Source: a virus
Length of the DNA stretch: 22,008 nucleotides
Strand: one strand, 5' to 3'
Virus record (IMG/VR): IMGVR_UViG_3300005584_000046
Span: 1-22,008 of that record
Below, in pieces: positions 1 through 14,808 of the stretch (positions within the stretch are counted from its first letter, which is position 1; the number at the start of each line of letters is the position of its first letter). The notes beneath the pieces are model-generated. The model saw only the letters and a list, made by a program, of their open reading frames with translations. It did no database searches and was not told the origin of the DNA. A program made the position numbers and the translations under genes.

Positions 1-1
1 A

Positions 2-313
2 CCAAAAGTAACTGTAAAAGCTACTAAAGTTATTGTTAAGCCTAAAACACAAGAACCAACTTATAAAAATTTAAGAATGGGTGTTAATTTGGAAAAAAGA
101 GAAATGACAGGCGAAAATAGAAACGACATAAAACCTAATAAAAGAGATAGTATGGCTTATAAATCTGGTTATAATATGGGTTTAGGTGGTAGCAAAGGCG
201 GTCTTAACGAAAGTCCTGTTGTAAGAATGGGTAGGTATGAAGGACAAAATGTTAAACGAAAGCCTGCTGCTGTAATAGTAAAAAAATTAGTTAAAATAAA
301 ACCTAAAAAATAA
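2..313 (+). CDS. Lysine-rich small phage protein, 5' end outside window
   Basis: The reading frame is open from the first complete codon at base 2 down to the stop at 311-313. An internal ATG sits at 77, but the frame continues upstream of it with the same basic, Val/Lys-rich composition (VKATKVIVKPK), so the gene probably starts before the window. At least 103 residues are visible. The protein has a Gly/Asn-rich middle (YNMGLGGSKGG) and a strongly basic C-terminus (VIVKKLVKIKPKK) resembling the basic stretch near the N-terminal part seen here. No membrane segment or catalytic motif is visible. It lies 5 bases ahead of another basic small gene, and such proteins may bind DNA or be packaged, but function is unknown. 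Confidence 0.6.
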   Translation, partial: PKVTVKATKVIVKPKTQEPTYKNLRMGVNLEKREMTGENRNDIKPNKRDSMAYKSGYNMGLGGSKGGLNESPVVRMGRYEGQNVKRKPAAVIVKKLVKIKPKK

Positions 314-5235: not shown

Positions 5236-5496
5236 TTAAGCGTTAATGCTTGATGTTAAAGTTCCAACAGTTTGGGTAACATAGTAACCACCAGTCAATA
5301 CGTTATTACCATTATAGTAATTTACAGTAATGATTGATTGCACACCCTGAAGGGCTGCTTGTTGTGCTGCTGATGCAGACTCAACTTGTTGGATGTATCC
5401 TGTTCCTACAAGTAGAACAGGACAAGGGTTGGCCAGACCTGAGAACGATGTTCCATCTGGGGTTTGAAGTACATTTACACTTACAGCTACTGCCAT
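5236..5496 (-). CDS. Convergent small protein of unknown function
   Basis: This is the only supported gene on the - strand. It encodes 86 residues starting MAVAVSVNVLQTPDG. The composition is rich in Val, Ala, Ser, Thr, Gly and Gln with few charges, and strand-rich ends (SIITVNYYNGNNVLTGGYYVTQT) flank an Ala/Gln helix (SASAAQQAALQGVQ). That resembles small virion or decoration proteins more than enzymes or regulators. It faces the replication operon and ends 20 bases from the shared bidirectional terminator. No other gene occupies 5204-5719 and the codon pattern is clean, so I take it as real. A weak TA-rich box with TTTTTTG near 5541 on the - strand could be its promoter. Confidence 0.65.
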   Translation of the reverse strand: MAVAVSVNVLQTPDGTSFSGLANPCPVLLVGTGYIQQVESASAAQQAALQGVQSIITVNYYNGNNVLTGGYYVTQTVGTLTSSINA

Positions 5497-5649: not shown

Positions 5650-5709
5650 ACCCAGCGTCAGAAGCAATCCCTAAGTTGCTGTATGTTTGCGCATCTTTTG
5701 GCGTTGGGT
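5650..5709 (+). promoter_or_regulatory. Structured leader ahead of the glycan operon
   Basis: Bases 5650-5664 (ACCCAGCGTCAGAAG) can pair with 5695-5709 (CTTTTGGCGTTGGGT) in a 15-bp RNA stem, 12 Watson-Crick pairs plus 3 G-U pairs. Inside, AGCAA (5663-5667) and TTGCT (5676-5680) can form a competing small hairpin. The stem ends 10 bases before the ATG at 5720. The TAnnTTTG match at 5682-5689 overlaps the loop, so the repeat could instead be a DNA operator. Function unknown. Confidence 0.4.
5682..5689 (+). promoter_or_regulatory. Possible -7 promoter box (TATGTTTG)
   Basis: TATGTTTG matches TAnnTTTG and lies 30 bases ahead of the first gene of the glycan operon, giving a leader of about 24 bases. 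There is no TTTG at the expected upstream distance. It is a plausible promoter for the whole rightward run of genes beginning at 5720. Confidence 0.35.
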
Positions 5710-5719
5710 TATTTTAATT

Positions 5720-6523
5720 ATGGCAACAAAAATCGTAATGGCCTCCTATGTAACCGAAACTAACAATCGGTTAGAATATGCAATAGATACCCTTATTGGT
5801 TTAATAGAAACCGTTGATTTTGATAAACACGAATTGTTTATTAGCGATAATGGGAGCTGTCAAGCAATGCTTGACTATTACAAATGGTTTAAACCACATT
5901 TCAATAATTTATTTCCAAAAGAAAACCTAACTATTTCATTAAACGGTAAAAACTTAGGAACGGCGGAAGCAGTAAACTTAGGAATACGTGAAAGAAAGCC
6001 AAATCAATACGTAATCAAAATAGATTCTGATGTAACCATTGGTAAAATAGGTTGGGTAGATAATATGGAAGAATGTTTTGATAGATACCCTAATCTTGGC
6101 ATCTTAGGATTAAAGAGAACAGAGCTAATACAGCATCCTGAACATGAAAACCCTGCATACCGAACACAATTAAAGTTCTTACCACACGAAAGGGGTGACA
6201 GCTGGGTAGTCATTGAAATCTGCAAAGACATAATCGGCACTTGCACCATGTTTAGTCCACAACTTTTAGATAAGGTGGGTTATATGTGGCAAATATCTAC
6301 TTATGCGTGGGATGATGTTTTCATGTCGCTACGTTCAGAAAAAGCAGGCTTTGAAAATGCGTTCTTACCAACAATTCCTATTGTTCACCTAGATAACGGT
6401 GAGGGTGACTATGTTAAAGAAAAATGTAAAGAAGCAGAAAGAACAATAGCTTACTTCTCTGAAATATCAGAAGACTACAAGATTGGAGTAAGAGATATTT
6501 ACTATAATCCATACGAAGGATGA
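5720..6523 (+). CDS. GT2-like (GT-A fold) glycosyltransferase
   Basis: The frame is open from a TTG at 5687, but that region lies in the structured leader; the ATG at 5720 (MATKIVMASYVTETNNRLEY) gives a normal start and 267 residues. The GT-A features are the opening beta strand, ISDNGS (41-46) in place of the usual D-N-x-S nucleotide-binding step, NLGTAEAVNLGI (78-89) and the DSD metal-binding motif (102-104) after the strand YVIKI. The later WDDVFMSLR matches the acidic acceptor/base region. It would transfer a sugar from an NDP-sugar to a glycan acceptor in the host cytoplasm. It opens a run of coupled genes; the next gene overlaps by ATGA. Confidence 0.8.
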   Translation: MATKIVMASYVTETNNRLEYAIDTLIGLIETVDFDKHELFISDNGSCQAMLDYYKWFKPHFNNLFPKENLTISLNGKNLGTAEAVNLGIRERKPNQYVIKIDSDVTIGKIGWVDNMEECFDRYPNLGILGLKRTELIQHPEHENPAYRTQLKFLPHERGDSWVVIEICKDIIGTCTMFSPQLLDKVGYMWQISTYAWDDVFMSLRSEKAGFENAFLPTIPIVHLDNGEGDYVKEKCKEAERTIAYFSEISEDYKIGVRDIYYNPYEG

Positions 6524-7101
6524 GAAAAGCAATTTTGTATAGTGGTTTTTTACGCAGTTGGAATGCTTGTAAGCAAAATCAGCTTGATTGTATTGGAGAG
6601 GGTGATAAGTATTTCTATACGTATGAGTTACCCGATGCTGTGGACTATTTTCAAGCGATACAAATACCTGAAATATATTACGCCCCTATTGCAGAGCATC
6701 TTTATATGTCAAACAAAAACCCTTTTTCAAGTATTGATAGCCCATTAAATTCTTGGCATAATCAGTACGTGAACTTTTGTCTTGTCCCACAGGGGTATGA
6801 TGTTTACATAAAGTCACGATGCGATATTCAACTAAGTGGCACAATAAACTTCAATGAGTTTGATATTAACGACACAAATATTTACATTTTAAGTGGTAAC
6901 GACCATTACAACGGTGTAAACGACCAATTTGCATTTGGTAGCTACAAAATAATGAAAAAGTATTTTTCGGTTTATGTTAACCACAGGGCGGTGTTCGACA
7001 CAGGCGAGATGTTTCACCCCGAAGGATATGTAACCAAAAACCTTCAAATGTTAGGAGTAAATATTATCCGATTAAACATTACCAACACAATACTAAGATG
7101 A
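6520..7101 (+). CDS. Glycosyltransferase-like surface polysaccharide protein
   Basis: This 193-residue protein begins RKAILYSGFLRSW and contains YDVYIKSRCDIQL (about residues 93-105) and GVNDQFAFGSYKIMKKY. This combination ('SGxxR' start, 'D-V-x-I-K/R-x-R-x-D' and 'N-D-Q-F-A-x-G') recalls WavE-like and related lipopolysaccharide/capsule glycosyltransferase proteins. The R-C-D may do the job of the metal-binding D-x-D. It is short for a full glycosyltransferase but keeps both signature ends. It overlaps its neighbours by ATGA on both sides, indicating coupled translation. Substrate cannot be told from the sequence. Confidence 0.65.
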   Translation: MRKAILYSGFLRSWNACKQNQLDCIGEGDKYFYTYELPDAVDYFQAIQIPEIYYAPIAEHLYMSNKNPFSSIDSPLNSWHNQYVNFCLVPQGYDVYIKSRCDIQLSGTINFNEFDINDTNIYILSGNDHYNGVNDQFAFGSYKIMKKYFSVYVNHRAVFDTGEMFHPEGYVTKNLQMLGVNIIRLNITNTILR

Positions 7102-8459
7102 GCATCAAATTAGTTATTTTTGATTTAGATGGTGTTTTAATTTCAACAAGAACGCTACACTATGAAGTTCTTAATCAAGCATTATTAGAGGAGGGCAAAG
7201 AATATGTTATATCATATCAAGACCACTTGTTAAAGTTCGATGGACTTAGCACCTCAAAAAAGTTAGATATGCTTGAAACCGAAAGGGGATTATCTAAAGA
7301 AGCAAAGGAAAGGGTTTGGGAAAGAAAGCAGAAATTGACTATCCCAAGTCTGGTATCGTCTATACAAGAAGATAAAAAAATCATACAAATTATTAATAAG
7401 TTAAAAGAAGACAGCATCAAGGTATATGTAGCATCCAACTCCATTGATAAATCGGTTATGGTATCGCTTAATCAATTGGGTATATTATTTTTAGTAGATG
7501 GTTATTTATCTAATGAAAGCGTTTCTTTTCCTAAACCACACCCAGAGATTTATTGGAATTGTATGACTTTGGTTGGTGTACTTCCTTCCGAAACACTAAT
7601 CGTTGAGGATAGTTATATAGGTAGGTCAGCAGCAGTATCCTCTGGTGCTAACTTATGCCCTGTAAACAACAAAGACGAGGTAACAATGGAAAGAATAAAC
7701 AACCATTTAAACAAAGAGCAGATGGACTTAAAATGGCATGATGAAAAAATGAACGTATTAATTCCCTGTGCAGGGCATGGTTCACGCTTTGCAGATGCAG
7801 GATATACGTTCCCTAAATTATTAATTGATGTCAACGGTAAGCCAATGATACAAGTGGTGGTAGAAAACTTAAATATTAATGCAAACTTTATTTTTATTGT
7901 TCGACAAGAGCATTACGATACGTATAACTTAAAATCATTACTAAATATTATCGCCCCCAACTGTAAGATTGTTACGGTAAATGAAGTAACCGAAGGTGCT
8001 TGTTGCACAACCCTCCTTGCAGAAAAATACATTGACAATGACAACCCATTGGTAATAGCAAATTCAGACCAATTTATGCAATGGAGGTCTGGTGAGTTCT
8101 ATCATTCCTTGAATAGCGACAACATCGATGGCAGTATTGTATGTTTTGAAAACATTCACCCAAAGTGGTCTTACGTTAAAACAAATGAATACGGTAATGT
8201 AACGGAGGTAGCAGAAAAAAAAGTGATATCCAATCAAGCAACAACTGGGGTTTACTTTTATAAAAAGGGTTCTGACTACGTAAAGTATAGTAAGCAGATG
8301 ATAGAGAAGAACATCAGAACAAACAATGAATTTTATGTATGCCCTGTTTTCAATGAGTTTATTGAGGATGGAAAAATTATAAAAACCTTTACGGTAGATA
8401 AGATGAATGGTCTTGGTACTCCTGAAGATTTAAACAACTATTTAAACAATAATAAATGA
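7098..8459 (+). CDS. HAD phosphatase-sugar nucleotidyltransferase fusion
   Basis: This 453-residue two-domain enzyme joins a HAD hydrolase (about 1-205) to a nucleotidyltransferase (218-453). The HAD part has the complete motifs: DLDG (9-12, nucleophile D9 and D11), ASNS (112-115), K146-P147 and VEDS (169-172), with a helical cap between motifs I and II, as in beta-phosphoglucomutase-like phosphatases. The second part starts MNVLIPCAGHGSRF with P-x-A-G-x-G-x-R (223-230), K240 in FPKLLIDVNGKPMI and the metal-binding SDQ (323-325). It probably makes an activated sugar or other NDP-linked group for the adjacent glycosyltransferases. The order 'phosphatase then nucleotidyltransferase' resembles heptose-activation pathways, but the substrate is not readable here. 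Confidence 0.8.
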   Translation: MSIKLVIFDLDGVLISTRTLHYEVLNQALLEEGKEYVISYQDHLLKFDGLSTSKKLDMLETERGLSKEAKERVWERKQKLTIPSLVSSIQEDKKIIQIINKLKEDSIKVYVASNSIDKSVMVSLNQLGILFLVDGYLSNESVSFPKPHPEIYWNCMTLVGVLPSETLIVEDSYIGRSAAVSSGANLCPVNNKDEVTMERINNHLNKEQMDLKWHDEKMNVLIPCAGHGSRFADAGYTFPKLLIDVNGKPMIQVVVENLNINANFIFIVRQEHYDTYNLKSLLNIIAPNCKIVTVNEVTEGACCTTLLAEKYIDNDNPLVIANSDQFMQWRSGEFYHSLNSDNIDGSIVCFENIHPKWSYVKTNEYGNVTEVAEKKVISNQATTGVYFYKKGSDYVKYSKQMIEKNIRTNNEFYVCPVFNEFIEDGKIIKTFTVDKMNGLGTPEDLNNYLNNNK

Positions 8460-9451
8460 AAATAATAAGCCATAGAGGAAATCTAAACGGTAAAAATCCC
8501 GATAATGAAAATAGCCCTTCTTATGTTTGCAATGCTCTTAAATTAGGGTTTGATTGCGAAATAGATTTATGGTTAGTCAATGGAATATTATATTTAGGGC
8601 ATGATACGGCACTCTATAAGATTGAGCCAGAGTTTTTATTAAAAAAAGGGTTATGGATTCATTGTAAAAACCTTGAAGCATCACACTATATAGTTAATAA
8701 CAAAGAACTGAATGGATTTTGGCATCAGTCAGATGTTATGTCATTCACTACAGGTGGGTATATATGGACATTTGCCGACAACGACTTAACGGATAAGTCC
8801 ATAGCGGTATTGCCTGAATTGGTAGGCAGGGAAAAATTTGGAATGGCTTATGGTATTTGTACAGATTATCCAATACGATACAATGAGGGTGTTGTAGATT
8901 TTGTAGAACACTTTTACGAGAAAATTACAGGGTGGTTCACGTTTCCAAGATTCTACAAAGATATGGTTGAAATGTTACCAAACGGAAGCACAGTAATTGA
9001 AGTAGGGGTTTATGAGGGCAAGAGTTTTTCTTACTTTATGGTTGAAATGTTACGTGCAAAAAAGAGTTTCAATGTAAGTGCAGTTGATAGCTTTACTTTT
9101 GGAGATGAACAAACTAAGGAGAATATTGAAGTTGTATTTAGAAGAAACTTAGCATCGGTTATTGACAAAGTAAATGTTATTAAGGGCGATAGTGGGTTAA
9201 GTGCAGAACAGTTCGAAGATGAAAGTATCGATTTCATGTTTTTAGATGCTGACCATGTTTATAGTCGTGTACACTCCGATATAATGGCGTGGTTGCCAAA
9301 AATTAAAGTTGGTGGCATAATATCAGGTCACGATTATTGCAAAGAACATGAAGGTGTTATTGAAGCCGTAGACGAAATCTTTGGGCTTGATATAGACAGA
9401 AGGTATTTGGATGAATTAGTTTGGGTTTATACAAAAAAAAATGAACGGTAA
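8456..9451 (+). CDS. GDPD-like phosphodiesterase-methyltransferase fusion
   Basis: This 331-residue protein has two domains. Residues 1-145 resemble glycerophosphodiester phosphodiesterases: SHRG (5-8), ENSPSYVCNALKLGFDCEIDL with metal ligands E35 and D37, then LGHD (48-51) with the second catalytic His at 49, and HCKN (69-72). Residues about 150-331 are a class I SAM-dependent methyltransferase (Methyltransf_24-like): VIEVGVYEGKS (180-190) binds SAM, D211 follows strand 2, and MFLDADHVYSRVHSDI then GGIISGHDY are typical of that family. The catalytic residues of both halves appear intact. No signal peptide, so it acts in the cytoplasm. A role in attaching, trimming or methylating a phosphate-linked glycan decoration is inference. 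Confidence 0.75.
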   Translation: MKIISHRGNLNGKNPDNENSPSYVCNALKLGFDCEIDLWLVNGILYLGHDTALYKIEPEFLLKKGLWIHCKNLEASHYIVNNKELNGFWHQSDVMSFTTGGYIWTFADNDLTDKSIAVLPELVGREKFGMAYGICTDYPIRYNEGVVDFVEHFYEKITGWFTFPRFYKDMVEMLPNGSTVIEVGVYEGKSFSYFMVEMLRAKKSFNVSAVDSFTFGDEQTKENIEVVFRRNLASVIDKVNVIKGDSGLSAEQFEDESIDFMFLDADHVYSRVHSDIMAWLPKIKVGGIISGHDYCKEHEGVIEAVDEIFGLDIDRRYLDELVWVYTKKNER

Positions 9452-9578
9452 GAAAGCACGTAAGCTAAAGCAACTATCCGATAGGGAGTTTGAAACATCA
9501 GACGATAAGTCCAGAAGAATGGTTTATCAAGATTTGAAAACTATGTACAAAAAAGGTCACGTAAAGTTTGCAAAATGA
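9441..9578 (+). CDS. 45-residue basic protein between glycan genes
   Basis: An ATG at 9441 opens a 45-codon ORF ending at TGA 9576-9578. It overlaps the end of the phosphodiesterase-methyltransferase gene by 11 bases and the next glycosyltransferase start by ATGA. It fills the gap exactly, which argues that it is translated, at least to couple the flanking genes. The peptide starts NGKKARKLKQLSDREFETS and is basic and helical, with no Cys and no membrane segment. Function unknown. Confidence 0.6.
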   Translation: MNGKKARKLKQLSDREFETSDDKSRRMVYQDLKTMYKKGHVKFAK

Positions 9579-10558
9579 AAACCGTTTACTATTTAAGCAT
9601 GGTTGAGGATGATGCCGCTTCGTTTTACAGAACGAATGGTGTATTCCCTTTTCTAAAATCAAAAGACATTTTAGTAAAGAACATTTATAATTATCAAAAG
9701 ACTTACGGATGGGAAAGTCTTATAGGTGCTGATATTTTTATTTTCCAAAGACCTTACCACGAACATCATGTTAATCTAATTATGATGGCAAAGGACATGG
9801 GCATTAAAGTAATATGCGAGTATGATGATGATTTACTGAATGTTCCATTCCACAACAACGCTGCTGTAACATTAAGCGAGCAAAGAGCCAATATAAAAAA
9901 GGCATTAAGTCTTGCAGATGAAGCGTGGGTCACAACTGACTGTATAAAGAAAGAATATAAATTCTTTAACAGAAACATTCATGTTATCCCAAATGCTCAC
10001 AATGATTATCTATACCCAATAGAAAACAAAAAACCATTCAATAAAGATACAAAGATTGCAGCGTACAGAGGTGGTGCATCTCACGAAGCCGATATGTATC
10101 AAAACATAAATGATATTGTAGAAACAATAGACGAGTGCCAAAATTGGACATTCAGGTTTCAAGGCAGTCGTTTCAAGCATATTGAGGAACGTACAGGCAA
10201 TAATCACGAATTTACCGACCCTGTAACTTTAATGCAGTTTTATAAACAGTACCACGAACTAAATGCAAACATTGCTTTCTTCCCATTGATTAATAATGTG
10301 TTTAACAATGGTAAGAGCAACATATCTTTTTTGGAAGCTACCTACGCTGGGTCAGCCTTTATGGGCAATAGAGATTTGTCTGAATTTAATCTACCCTTTA
10401 TTATACCTATACAAAATGGGTTTAAAGAAGAGTTTAACAAAGCAAAAGATGACTTTTATAGATTAGAAATATTGAATAACGATGCTTGGGATTGGATTTT
10501 AGAAAACAGGTTGCTAAGTAAAGTAAACGAATTAAGAATAGAAAGAATATTAGCATGA
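9575..10558 (+). CDS. GT-B fold glycosyltransferase
   Basis: This 327-residue protein has the two-lobe arrangement of GT-B enzymes of the GT4 type. The N-lobe includes ADIFIFQRP (52-60) and CEYDDDLLNVP (81-91), a pattern common in phage and CgeB-like glycosyltransferases, and ADEAWVTTDCIKKEY. Hinge and C-lobe elements are VIPN (137-140), AAYRGGASHEADM (162-174) and NGKSNISFLEATYAG (245-259), where K247 and E254 stand in the positions of the donor-binding Lys and E-x7-E of GT4 enzymes. It would use an NDP-sugar, possibly one made by the nucleotidyltransferase two genes upstream. It is coupled by ATGA to both the 45-residue ORF and the GroES-like gene. Confidence 0.75.
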   Translation: MKTVYYLSMVEDDAASFYRTNGVFPFLKSKDILVKNIYNYQKTYGWESLIGADIFIFQRPYHEHHVNLIMMAKDMGIKVICEYDDDLLNVPFHNNAAVTLSEQRANIKKALSLADEAWVTTDCIKKEYKFFNRNIHVIPNAHNDYLYPIENKKPFNKDTKIAAYRGGASHEADMYQNINDIVETIDECQNWTFRFQGSRFKHIEERTGNNHEFTDPVTLMQFYKQYHELNANIAFFPLINNVFNNGKSNISFLEATYAGSAFMGNRDLSEFNLPFIIPIQNGFKEEFNKAKDDFYRLEILNNDAWDWILENRLLSKVNELRIERILA

Positions 10559-11409
10559 AGCCAAACTTAAATTATGTATTAATACTACCAGAGCAGGTTA
10601 TAGATAGTAAAATAATCATAACTCCTGATACGATTGCAAGACCTTTTGTGAAAGGTACTGTTGTTGCCACAGGTGATGGTTGCTATAACCAAAAGACAGG
10701 TGAATTTAGGGCTACTAGTGTTAATGTAGGTGATAAAGTTTCTTATGTTCCAAACATTGGCTACTTGGTAGATAATAATGGTGAAGCATGTGTATTGATT
10801 AGGGAAGAAGAAATATTTACAGCCAATGGTAAACCTATCAATGATTGGGTAGGTGTAGAGTTTGATGAAAAGCATAATAAGTCAATGATGATTGGCAATA
10901 TTGAAATTGCAAGACCTGATACGTGGATTTATCAAGAGTTTGACGATAAGACTATGTACGAAAACAATAAGGACTTAAAGGCAACAAGCCCACAGATAGC
11001 AAAGATTATTAAACCAAATAAAAAGCATGGACTGCAAAAAGATGATTTAGTATTTGTCCATTACTTGCAGTATAGCACTTCATTAATTATTGATGGAATA
11101 AAGTACATACCATTCAACACTATATTTTTTAAGATAAATGGCAAGGATGATTTTGAGATGGCAGATGATACGTTCCTTGCAAGGCAGATAGTTATTGAAG
11201 CCCCTAAAACAGCATCGGGAATATATTTAAGTTCTACTAATGACAAGAAAGAGCCATTAAAGCTTATTATTACTCATGCTCCAAGAAACTTAAAAATAAA
11301 AGTAGGAAGCACAATAATAACTGAAGATAATTACCATTACGAAATTGATGTATATCAAGAAAAATATGTTAAGATAACTCCTGAATGGGTTATTGCATCA
11401 CTTGATTAA
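10555..11409 (+). CDS. Triple-domain GroES-like co-chaperonin
   Basis: In this 284-residue protein, residues 5-90 align by eye with GroES: a start like 'LNYVLILPEQV', the mobile-loop-like SKIIITPD, then KGTVVATGDG (33-42), VNVGDKVSYVPNIGYLV (57-73) and the end EACVLIREEEIFT (77-89), compared with 'VLIMSESDILA' in E. coli GroES. Residues about 98-196 appear to repeat the pattern more weakly (SPQIAKIIKPNKKHGLQKDDLVFVHY), and 203-284 repeat it well: TASGIYLSS (219-227) resembles the 'GGIVLTG' mobile loop, followed by KVGSTIITED and YVKITPEWVIASLD. Known phage co-chaperonins such as T4 gp31 help GroEL fold the capsid protein. Three domains in one chain is unusual. It is coupled by ATGA to the glycosyltransferase. 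Confidence 0.65.
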   Translation: MKPNLNYVLILPEQVIDSKIIITPDTIARPFVKGTVVATGDGCYNQKTGEFRATSVNVGDKVSYVPNIGYLVDNNGEACVLIREEEIFTANGKPINDWVGVEFDEKHNKSMMIGNIEIARPDTWIYQEFDDKTMYENNKDLKATSPQIAKIIKPNKKHGLQKDDLVFVHYLQYSTSLIIDGIKYIPFNTIFFKINGKDDFEMADDTFLARQIVIEAPKTASGIYLSSTNDKKEPLKLIITHAPRNLKIKVGSTIITEDNYHYEIDVYQEKYVKITPEWVIASLD

Positions 11410-11410
11410 T

Positions 11411-12340
11411 ATGGATAAAGAAAATAGAATTGATGAATTTGATATAATTCAAGAAATTTCTAATAAGTCAAAGCAAACGCAAGATATTGTAAGGGGAACA
11501 ATACATGCCTATCACACTATCATAATGCGTGAGCTTCAGGCTAATAAAACTATTTGTTGTAGGAACTTTGTAACGTATAAAGCTGCTTATAGAAAGTCTG
11601 GACTTATCAATGCTAAAGGAGTTGCCATTGTTGGTAGTAACGCTTTAAAGGTTACTCCTTCAAGAGCTATGAGAAGAGCAATAAATTCAAAAGAGACTAT
11701 TGATTATTCTTTAGACCTCTTTGAAACCGAAGAGAGCAAGGTAATAGCCAAGTTAAAAGAACAATTAAGAAAGCTAAAGATTTCAAATCATCATGCTTTA
11801 AACAAAGCCGATGTTGTAAAGAATAAATTTTCTGATAGGATTCAAAGGGTTTATAAAAGAAAGTCAGCGGTTCGTGTAAAAAAATATACCAAGACTATTG
11901 CCAATAGTAGAGTAAATCATAAGGCCAATGCTCTTTTAAATAATAAAATACTAAGGGAAAGAATAAACGAAAGCTATTTTTTAGATGCTATTACTGCTTA
12001 CCCTGTCTTAACAAAGTTCTATAAAAGTCAGCAACTTACAATTAATGAGTTGAATATGTTTATCGTAATTAATCATTTTAAATACTTTACTCACAAGGAT
12101 GCAGTATTGTTTGGGTTTAATAAAAATACAGCAGCTAATTGTTTAATTGTACTAACGGATGCAGGATTAATTGAAAAGTTTGAGGGTAGGATAAATACTT
12201 TTTGTGTAAGTTTAATTGGCAAAAAGAAGTTTACAGTATTTTCAAGAGAGATAAATAAAGATATGAGATTGCTCTTAAAGGAGTATGATAAAAAAACTGA
12301 AGGTCAAGAAAAATCATTACCTGTAAAATTCAAATTCTAA
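11411..12340 (+). CDS. HU/IHF-like DNA-binding protein fused to winged helix
   Basis: An in-frame TTG lies at 11393, but ATG 11411, one base after the preceding stop, is the likelier start (309 residues). Residues 9-93 fit the HU/IHF fold: two N-terminal helices (DIIQEISNKSKQTQDIVRGT, AYHTIIMRELQANKTI), then CCRNFVTYKAAYRKSG in place of the 'L-x-G-F-G-T-F' strand, a beta-arm region and VTPSRAMRRAIN at the end. A basic coiled-coil-like middle (105-180) follows. Residues 205-283 look like a MarR-type winged helix: LTINELNMFIVINHF, THKDAVLFGFNKNTAANCLI, LTDAGLIEKFEGR and VSLIGKKKF. IHF-like proteins bend DNA; this one might organise packaging sites or regulate late genes. Confidence 0.65.
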   Translation: MDKENRIDEFDIIQEISNKSKQTQDIVRGTIHAYHTIIMRELQANKTICCRNFVTYKAAYRKSGLINAKGVAIVGSNALKVTPSRAMRRAINSKETIDYSLDLFETEESKVIAKLKEQLRKLKISNHHALNKADVVKNKFSDRIQRVYKRKSAVRVKKYTKTIANSRVNHKANALLNNKILRERINESYFLDAITAYPVLTKFYKSQQLTINELNMFIVINHFKYFTHKDAVLFGFNKNTAANCLIVLTDAGLIEKFEGRINTFCVSLIGKKKFTVFSREINKDMRLLLKEYDKKTEGQEKSLPVKFKF

Positions 12341-12344
12341 AATC

Positions 12345-12740
12345 ATGGTAGGTAAAAAATTAGAAAATCTCCGTAGTGGCATAAAAGATGTTGATAACTA
12401 TATAAAAAAGTTAGAGGACAAGGTTAATGCTATTAATGGCTCAAACACATTAAGGTTGATAACTTCTATTGATTCAATGGCAGGTAAGATAGCTACCGAT
12501 ATTGACATGATGGCAAATGGCCAGCAGGATGAAGATGGGAACGATGTAGAAATATCTCACAAGATTGTAGATACCTTTATAAAGTTAATTGACAAGTCTG
12601 ATAAGATAAAATCATTCTCTGATGTTGTAGAAGCTTTAAGAAGCATTGAAGATGAGAAGGAAGCTGGAATTACAGGTGAAAGTATTTTTGAAAAGACTGA
12701 AAGAAGGATAAAGAGCAAGTTGAATGGCAAGACGAATTAA
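12345..12740 (+). CDS. Putative small terminase subunit
   Basis: This 131-residue protein is largely helical and charged. A coiled-coil N-terminus (KKLENLRSGIKDVDNYIKKLEDKVNAIN) is followed by helices around SHKIVDTFIKLIDKSDKIKSF and a basic tail (KTERRIKSKLNGKTN). It lies immediately upstream of, and overlaps, the large terminase gene, where the small DNA-recognition subunit is usually encoded, and the size and helical oligomerising character fit. No DNA-binding motif is clear, so the assignment is by position. Confidence 0.45.
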   Translation: MVGKKLENLRSGIKDVDNYIKKLEDKVNAINGSNTLRLITSIDSMAGKIATDIDMMANGQQDEDGNDVEISHKIVDTFIKLIDKSDKIKSFSDVVEALRSIEDEKEAGITGESIFEKTERRIKSKLNGKTN

Positions 12741-14808
12741 AATTATGCTTCAAGGCTTGGAGTACATTACTCCTGAAGTGCCTAAATATATTAGGGGCAG
12801 AGATTTAATGAGGCGTGACCAGGTATGGAATAGAGATACAACGTACCTACAATGGAATTGGAATACAGACCCAGAAGAAGGCTTTGTATGGCACGAGAAG
12901 CCATCAAAAGGTCAGATTGAATGGTATGAAGATGAAATAGAAAGGCTTCATACAGGAGATTGGATAATGATATGTGGTGAAGCTGTTTACTTTAACAAGT
13001 ACGCTTATTTCTTTCACCAATGGTTCATGCTACAAGAGGGCATATACCCAATATTCAAAGATACCTCATTAGAGTATTTCAGGTTCTACCAACTGTGCGA
13101 AGAAGATGACTTTACGTTAGGTGACTGCGGAATTAAGGGTAGGCGTGTTGGTCTTTCCTCAATGAAGGCATCAATCAATCTACTCATAGGTTTACTTGAA
13201 GAAAACACTTTGCAAGGTATTGTATCTAAGACAGGTACGGATGCAAAGGAAATGTACTTAATGGTAAAGAATGGATTAGAAAACTTGCCAGAGTGCTTAA
13301 TGCCCGACTTAGCAAAAGTAGCTGAAACAGAACTTCATATAGCCAAGCCAAGAAGCAGAATATCAACCAATAATAAAACTGTTTCAAGCAATAAAGGTAA
13401 GAACAATCGTATCAACTGGTTATCAACAGCAGAGAACGCTTATGATGGTCGTAGAGCAAGAAACATTACCATAGATGAAGCGGCCAAATGGGAAGAGGCA
13501 AACGTAGAGATATGTTTAGCCAAGATAAGTGAAACTCTTGTTATCGGTGCGTCTGTTATTGGTCACGTATCTGTATTTAGCTCTGTCAATAGGGGCGATA
13601 AAGGAGGTAACAACTTTAAGAACATTTGGATAGGCTCTAATCATTTAGGCAAGTTAGATACGGTTGGTCAAACAGAAACACGACTTAAAAGATTTTTCCT
13701 TGAAGGCTATCGTGGGTATTTTGGGTATATTGATAAGTACGGAAATTCCGTAATAGAAAATCCAACTCCCGAACAAACTTCGTATTTAGCTAAACTTACA
13801 GACCCCACAACAGGAAAGAAAGCTTGCCCTAATCCAAAGATAGGAGCAAAGCAATACATTCAAGAGCGAAGGTCTTTGTTATCAAACAACCCAGATAAGT
13901 TATCGGAGTGGGTTCGTATGTACCCCTTTGAATGGCAAGAGGTATTTAAGGATTCAAACAATGCGTGTCACTTTAACCTGAATGAGCTTAATGACCAAAT
14001 TTTGACTATTGAGATGGAGCTTGAAGGTAAAAGCAAATCTGAAAATGGCCGTATTGGAATATTTAAAAAAGCAGACAACGGAGAGATTTACTTCGTAGAT
14101 AATGCTAAAGGTATGTGGCATATCTTGGAGTTCCCTGAACAGCATAACAAATCTGTTTACAATGGAAGTGTTAAATGCCCAAACAATACAAATTACGGTG
14201 CATCGGGTCTTGATACGTTTGCTAATGCTAAACAAACGGTAGAGAAAGGTTCTGATGCTTGTTGCATAATCCACAAGAGGTATGATGCGTTAAGTCCTGA
14301 AACATCAAACATGCCTGTTGCTATGTTCTTAGGCAGACCGAAGACAAAAGATGAATTTCATAACCAAATATTTTACGGACTTGAATACTTTGGAATTAAG
14401 ATGCTTGCAGAAAGAAGCCCTACCGATTGGGAGGATTATGCTATCATGAAAAGATATGCTTCACCACTTGAATCACATAAGAAGCATGGTTATTTAATAA
14501 CAACAAAGCGGTCAAACAATTCAGAGGTGTATGGTATCGCCCCACAAGATAAAGAAGCGAGGGAACAGCACTTAACGGAGATGGTAGAGTATTCATTGAA
14601 TAATATGCACAAGATTAAGTTTCTAAGATTACTGAAAGATATGGTTAATTTTAATATTAATTCACGTACAGATTATGACGCTTGTATGGCATGGGGTTAT
14701 TCCCTAATGGGGTTAAAGGAGCATGCTTTACCTGTTAAAAAGTTGGATAATAGCAAATTAAAAATATTTCACGTTTTTAAAAAACCAATAGCACAAAAAT
14801 ACAATTAA
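12724..14808 (+). CDS. terL: Terminase large subunit (TerL)
   Basis: This 694-residue packaging motor joins an N-terminal ATPase to a C-terminal RNase H-like nuclease. The Walker A region is GIKGRRVGLSSM (136-147), lacking the usual G-K-S/T. Walker B with the catalytic acid is NITIDE (247-252), and the coupling strand VSVFSSVNRGDKGG (282-295) follows. The nuclease part has GLD (495-497) after YGASG, an acidic residue at E563 in KMLAERSPTDW, and a long C-terminal segment with TDYDACMAWGYSLMG. It packages DNA into the prohead through the portal. The ATG at 12724 overlaps the previous gene by 17 bases; a second ATG at 12745, 4 bases after that stop, is an equally likely start (687 residues). Confidence 0.85.
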   Translation: MARRIKIMLQGLEYITPEVPKYIRGRDLMRRDQVWNRDTTYLQWNWNTDPEEGFVWHEKPSKGQIEWYEDEIERLHTGDWIMICGEAVYFNKYAYFFHQWFMLQEGIYPIFKDTSLEYFRFYQLCEEDDFTLGDCGIKGRRVGLSSMKASINLLIGLLEENTLQGIVSKTGTDAKEMYLMVKNGLENLPECLMPDLAKVAETELHIAKPRSRISTNNKTVSSNKGKNNRINWLSTAENAYDGRRARNITIDEAAKWEEANVEICLAKISETLVIGASVIGHVSVFSSVNRGDKGGNNFKNIWIGSNHLGKLDTVGQTETRLKRFFLEGYRGYFGYIDKYGNSVIENPTPEQTSYLAKLTDPTTGKKACPNPKIGAKQYIQERRSLLSNNPDKLSEWVRMYPFEWQEVFKDSNNACHFNLNELNDQILTIEMELEGKSKSENGRIGIFKKADNGEIYFVDNAKGMWHILEFPEQHNKSVYNGSVKCPNNTNYGASGLDTFANAKQTVEKGSDACCIIHKRYDALSPETSNMPVAMFLGRPKTKDEFHNQIFYGLEYFGIKMLAERSPTDWEDYAIMKRYASPLESHKKHGYLITTKRSNNSEVYGIAPQDKEAREQHLTEMVEYSLNNMHKIKFLRLLKDMVNFNINSRTDYDACMAWGYSLMGLKEHALPVKKLDNSKLKIFHVFKKPIAQKYN

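Follow-up and report, generated by a model that had tools for sequence, protein, structure and literature searches.

A phage protein with three GroES-type domains in a single chain, a probable Cpn20-like co-chaperonin

An open reading frame (ORF) of 284 codons, found in a marine phage, encodes three GroES-type domains in a single chain. We consider it probable that its product is a multi-domain co-chaperonin, whose three barrels would take part in the lid over a seven-fold GroEL ring and thereby assist the folding of phage proteins. On this explanation the ancestral unit in phages was a lid of two domains, similar to Cpn20 and with its gene close to that of the terminase; domains 2 and 3 represent it, and an ordinary GroES domain was joined to their front in the present clade. 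The sequence that was analysed (hereafter the window, 22,008 nucleotides) is a 22-kb fragment from a virus record, with phage terminase and portal genes. No report of a three-domain GroES was found in the literature that we searched.

The locus, its relatives and their chaperonin genes

The features discussed here are collected in Table 1. Thirteen IMG/VR contigs carry close relatives of the three-domain ORF (71-99% amino acid identity). Ten of these relatives are full length, an eleventh is cut by the edge of its contig and lacks only residues 1-6, and two more are truncated; all three domains are present in each of the 11 that are intact or nearly so. A chance misassembly is ruled out, as the same intact three-domain ORF is found on separate contigs. 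Wherever it could be computed without saturation, dN/dS between relatives was 0.04-0.27 overall, and by domain 0.04-0.08 (domain 1), 0.06-0.16 (domain 2) and 0.16-0.27 (domain 3): every domain is under purifying selection and thus maintained. A pattern scan of 84,980 bacterial and archaeal genomes retrieved no relatives of the protein and thus gave no sign that it came from a prophage or a host. Among cultured phages none matched the three-domain protein, and tblastn with one of its metagenomic two-domain relatives (L073) gave no cultured phage match either.

Table 1. Features of the window (all on the + strand; position 1 is the first nucleotide of the window)
Feature	Position	Remarks
Upstream glycosyltransferase	9575..10558	PHROG 7162; also conserved beside two-domain relatives
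Three-domain GroES-like ORF	10555..11409	ATG at 10555, stop included; 284 aa
ATGA overlap	10555..10558	Start of the three-domain ORF, stop of the glycosyltransferase
Domain 1 (residues 1-92)	10555..10830	Canonical Cpn10/GroES; missing from two-domain relatives
Domain 1, mobile-loop region VIDSKIIITPDTIARP	10597..10644	Retains the hydrophobic triplet; K/S in place of the conserved glycine
Domain 1, roof hairpin region DGCYNQKTGEFRATSVNV	10675..10728	From alignment with GroES
Domain 2 (residues 93-197)	10831..11145	GroES-type barrel, from predicted structure only
Domain 2, mobile-loop equivalent HNKSMMIGNIEIARPDTW	10873..10926	Predicted beta-hairpin, IEI triplet
Domain 2, family-specific insertion PDTWIYQEFDDKTMYENNKDLKATSP	10915..10992	From alignment of 19 sequences
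Domain 3 (residues 198-284)	11146..11406	Diverged GroES domain
Domain 3, mobile-loop region EAPKTASGIYLSSTNDKKEP	11197..11256	G222 invariant in 19/19 aligned sequences, then hydrophobic residues
Terminase large subunit	12724..14808	Conserved downstream landmark; PHROG 6681, 3.7e-67
Probable major capsid protein, 445 aa	18521..19858	Assigned from synteny with relatives' virion structural proteins; candidate client

The genes around it deserve a few comments of their own. Between the replication and packaging genes lies a sugar and methyl-transfer cassette (5687-9451) that varies between relatives; it comprises glycosyltransferases, a fusion of a HAD phosphatase with a nucleotidyltransferase and a methyltransferase with an extra N-terminal domain, which suggests a swapped island for surface or DNA modification. 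Upstream, an ORF of 86 amino acids (5236-5496) is apparently the sole minus-strand gene of the window; a relative has it conserved (L013:1267-1527), and L118 and L119 may hold counterparts. The gene that follows the three-domain ORF (11411-12340) codes for an HU/IHF-like DNA-binding domain with a C-terminal part of weak anti-repressor similarity, and the protein found at the same place in L038 has no detectable similarity with it. The terminase large subunit, with 694 residues and no insert in the window, reaches 1042 residues in some close relatives, L013 (7170-10298) and L002, where it is interrupted by what looks like an intein carrying a homing endonuclease of LAGLIDADG type. The probable capsid protein had no family match in a PHROG search, and neither tRNA nor Rfam matches were found within the window.

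Scans with the alignment of domains 2 and 3 uncovered marine phage contigs that encode these two domains only, in proteins of 195-209 residues that are 27-37% identical to the window protein. Their genes begin at the same glycosyltransferase junction; in most of the contigs inspected the two-domain gene comes after this glycosyltransferase, shortly upstream of terminase. Diverged two-domain versions are also carried by cultured Flavobacterium, Cellulophaga and Maribacter phages, and in elemovirus, phi13:2, phi38:1 and Panino, all of them cultured, a two-domain GroES-like gene of 180-200 codons sits just before terminase. In a tree of the terminases the three-domain clade makes a single branch, sister to two two-domain contigs (L023 and L024) and placed within two-domain lineages. 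This nesting is most simply explained if domain 1 was fused once, onto the front of an ancestral two-domain protein.

A different arrangement is seen in a related phage (contig L035, or G006), where a protein of 282 residues at the same place (L035:4752-5597) resembles domains 2 and 3 followed by a third, C-terminal part. Its first two parts are linked by their profiles to domains 2 and 3, while a comparison of the third with GroES gave no significant profile link, and it was set aside as a second three-domain case for this reason. It is possibly an independent three-domain lid. The contig also carries an ordinary GroES elsewhere.

Several of the relatives associate the two-domain gene with chaperonin genes proper. 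In contig G014 (L119:6007-8186) it shares 4 bp (ATGA) with the beginning of a GroEL gene, with a single-domain GroES downstream, in what appears to be a three-gene phage chaperonin operon; this neighbourhood points to a co-chaperonin and not to a virion part. In contig G012 the two-domain gene is preceded, at a distance of about 6 kb, by an ordinary GroES gene of the same strand. Elemovirus, Panino and phi38:1 encode a GroEL and an adjoining ordinary GroES elsewhere in the genome, besides their two-domain gene. That a GroES domain is fused to the pair in one clade and co-occurs with it as a separate gene in others suggests a joint action of these pieces. The window itself showed no GroEL, and most of the metagenomic two-domain contigs, several of which are fragments, showed neither GroEL nor a separate GroES. 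This weighs somewhat against the explanation, and makes the host GroEL the likely partner in these cases.

The company of packaging and structural genes leaves room, however, for other roles, and this counts against a co-chaperonin. The GroES fold might have been reused for head assembly, for packaging or in the virion, for example as a ring or spacer at the terminase or portal, with loss of GroEL binding. The gene is indeed close to terminase in nearly all relatives, domain 2 has a conserved insertion that is foreign to GroES, and in the several relatives that own a separate, ordinary GroES beside GroEL the extra protein could serve another task. We nevertheless consider this reuse unlikely. 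The two-domain gene of G014 seems to share an operon with those of GroEL and GroES, no relative has lost the glycine in the mobile loop of domain 3, and the clade of the window has fused a canonical GroES domain onto the protein. The orthologue in phi38:1, moreover, bears no structural label, unlike its neighbours. The virion role that had been envisaged from the sequence of the window thus found no positive support.

Somewhat more doubtful still is a role as decoy or modulator, in which the protein would bind the host GroEL, or poison the host GroES ring through mixed assembly, not to fold phage proteins but to divert or block protein folding in the host or a defence linked to GroEL. A three-domain chain mixed with host GroES would be expected to alter the make-up of the ring, the loop glycine is missing from domain 1, and mixed co-chaperonin rings are known in chloroplasts (PMC4242682). 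Yet the purifying selection on all domains and the conserved loop motif fit a working lid equally well, and the apparent operon with a phage GroEL speaks for co-operation rather than interference. A co-chaperonin remains our preferred reading.

Three domains, three kinds of evidence

The original prediction saw three GroES-like domains in the ORF, the middle one (residues 98-196) as a diverged copy. Both points were borne out, by Pfam for domain 1, by NCBIfam and hhalign for domain 3, and by an AlphaFold2 model for domain 2, a copy so strongly diverged that sequence comparison gave no significant match. Domain 1 matches Cpn10 of Pfam (PF00166) at 6.2e-15 over residues 3-88, above the gathering cut-off, and it carries the score of the whole protein against this family (55.4 bits, for a cut-off of 21.1); domains 2 and 3 alone stay under the cut-off, at 17.0 bits. 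It also matches PHROG 3188 (GroES, 6.7e-11) and several NCBIfam GroES subfamilies, and in alignment is 30-39% identical to the single-domain GroES of several other phages and to that of E. coli. By homology, it is expected to adopt the GroES beta-barrel fold. Domain 3 is more distant: it matches NCBIfam GroES at 5.7e-4 (residues 213-282) and PHROG 13932, a two-domain phage GroES, at 1.5e-3, while its family profile meets the GroES profile with an hhalign E-value of 3.7e-8 and a probability of 95%.

The short motifs that had been pointed out in domains 1 and 3 fared unevenly. The hydrophobic loop triplets are there, IIIT at residues 20-23 and GIYLS at residues 222-226. A 'K-V-G-D/S' turn is read as K-V-G-S in domain 3, whereas domain 1 has N-V-G-D, and the closing strand, described as 'V-x-I-x-x-x-x-I', ends in V and not in I in domain 3; both departures are slight. 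The roof hairpin, about ten residues in GroES, is kept in domain 1 and absent from domains 2 and 3. Domain 2 has an insertion peculiar to the family, of which W124, N138 and P146, and likewise Q147 and I148 just behind it, are invariant in 19/19 aligned sequences.

Modelling had to take this modular make-up into account. With seven close sequences, the full chain reached an AlphaFold2 pLDDT of only 31.7, and single-domain GroES sequences aligned to it were split between domains 1 and 3. Hence domains 2 and 3 were modelled apart (residues 93-284, 19 homologues in the alignment), and it is to them that confident modelling is limited: mean pLDDT 86, pTM 0.78, and a pLDDT of roughly 75-94 over domain 2. 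In a Foldseek search of the PDB, the matches of near-unit probability to this model were all GroES or Cpn20 chains. VIA-align superposed Chlamydomonas Cpn20 on both domains (165 residues, model positions 1..192, Z 9.3, rmsd 4.9 Å); domain 3 was aligned to GroES with Z up to 9.8, and domain 2, more weakly, to dehydrogenases of the MDR family, in their GroES-like domains (Z about 5, most rmsd values above 4 Å). When viral models were searched, the second match was a two-domain cpn10, that of Cellulophaga phage phi18:3. For residues 98-284, where a fold other than that of GroES would have contradicted the prediction, the model and both structural comparisons returned a GroES/Cpn20 fold.

It is rather improbable, in our opinion, that domain 2 is an unrelated beta domain, modelled as a barrel, which would leave domains 1 and 3 as the only GroES-like ones. 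Domain 2 does lack a sequence link to GroES, as its profile gave no significant match in profile-profile comparison with that family, and comparing the profiles of the three domains with one another, built from close relatives only, yielded nothing significant. Against this stand the model confidence over the domain, the extent of the superposition on Cpn20, the matches to dehydrogenase domains and, in sequence, a weak link to the N-terminal domain of the two-domain GroES of cultured phages (hhalign probability 58%, 22 columns). The GroES-type fold of domain 2, as predicted by one model, is thus well supported. As for a lid over another seven-fold ring such as ClpP, brought to mind by a top match across both domains (7ekq_R, in an entry that contains Cpn20 and Cpn23 and is titled CrClpP-S2c), it is very improbable: the match reflects the fold of Cpn20 and not its partner, the ORFs that were inspected showed no Clp gene, and in a relative it is GroEL that adjoins the two-domain gene.

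How three domains might cap a seven-fold ring

Neighbouring subunits of a GroES ring meet with the last strand of one against the first strand of the other, so that the short linkers of the present protein fit neighbouring positions in a ring. As a co-chaperonin, it would place the three barrels of one chain side by side in the lid, over a ring of host or phage-encoded GroEL. The lid might then be made of 3+3 domains, or of 3+3+1 with one single-domain GroES, and bind GroEL mainly via the SGIYL loop of domain 3. The loss of the mobile-loop glycine in domain 1 counts against the explanation. The clients would be phage proteins, most likely, at a guess, the capsid protein. For the latter we prefer to imagine a roomier, or even open, dome, given that the roof hairpin is missing from domains 2 and 3 and likewise from T4 gp31.

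It had been argued that a three-domain chain cannot simply replace a heptamer, with a different ring make-up or a virion role as the only ways out. The premise is too strong. Six to eight GroES domains joined covalently in an engineered chain are functional with GroEL (PMC5780408), and Cpn20, alone or mixed with Cpn10, works with a seven-fold chaperonin (PMC5780408; PMC4242682); in such even or linked lids one chaperonin subunit is left unbound, or one lid domain stays out (PMC5780408; PMC4242682). Since two-domain co-chaperonins serve seven-fold chaperonins, the choice between these two outcomes is not supported as it was argued. By the same token, two copies of a three-domain chain are enough, whether or not a single-domain GroES joins them, and a pair of chains, by itself or completed by one GroES of the host, makes a plausible lid. 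A bolder view, which we advance tentatively, is that of a natural three-domain lid, either not seven-fold (six domains, one GroEL subunit being free) or mixed (seven domains, with one GroES of host or phage), that would be asymmetric, partly roofless and tuned to a single phage client.

Relation to known co-chaperonins

To our knowledge, the discussion of multi-domain co-chaperonins has centred essentially on plastids, where the fit of even-numbered lids to a seven-fold chaperonin is a standing question. The two- and three-domain lids of phages offer an independent, presumably easily expressed, system to study ring make-up, domain specialization and loss of the roof. They also suggest an investment by marine Bacteroidota phages in folding machinery of their own, encoded next to the genes for packaging.

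Bacterial GroES (Cpn10), which domain 1 resembles, and more distantly domain 3, has one domain of about 10 kDa per chain. T4 gp31 is a phage co-chaperonin with a GroES fold; domain 3 matches it in structure (Z 6.8-7.5) with 6-8% identity. It has no roof loops, and their absence is believed to make it easier to accommodate gp23, the capsid protein (PMC6318259), but it has a single domain per chain and forms a homo-heptamer, where the present protein has three domains per chain. Nearer are the two-domain GroES proteins of PHROG 13932 (phi13:2, phi38:1, elemovirus, Panino), which share the layout of domains 2 and 3 and the site just upstream of terminase; the predicted fold of the phi18:3 member matches domains 2 and 3. 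They are, however, devoid of domain 1 and of very low identity, and several of their phages add GroEL and a separate GroES.

Finally, the Cpn20 proteins of plastids and apicoplasts (Arabidopsis Cpn20, Chlamydomonas CPN20 and CPN23, P. falciparum cpn20) likewise set GroES-type domains head to tail, and Cpn20 works with a seven-fold chaperonin, often mixed with single-domain Cpn10. It has two domains, as do the closest outgroup relatives of the phage protein, which has three; it is plastid-targeted and made from a eukaryotic nuclear gene, whereas the present protein is phage-encoded. Unlike Cpn20, the phage protein is without roof hairpins in two of its domains, and its domain 2 has no detectable sequence relationship. 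In short, it is probably a phage co-chaperonin of the Cpn20 kind that has grown to three domains, with a predicted activity and ring make-up.
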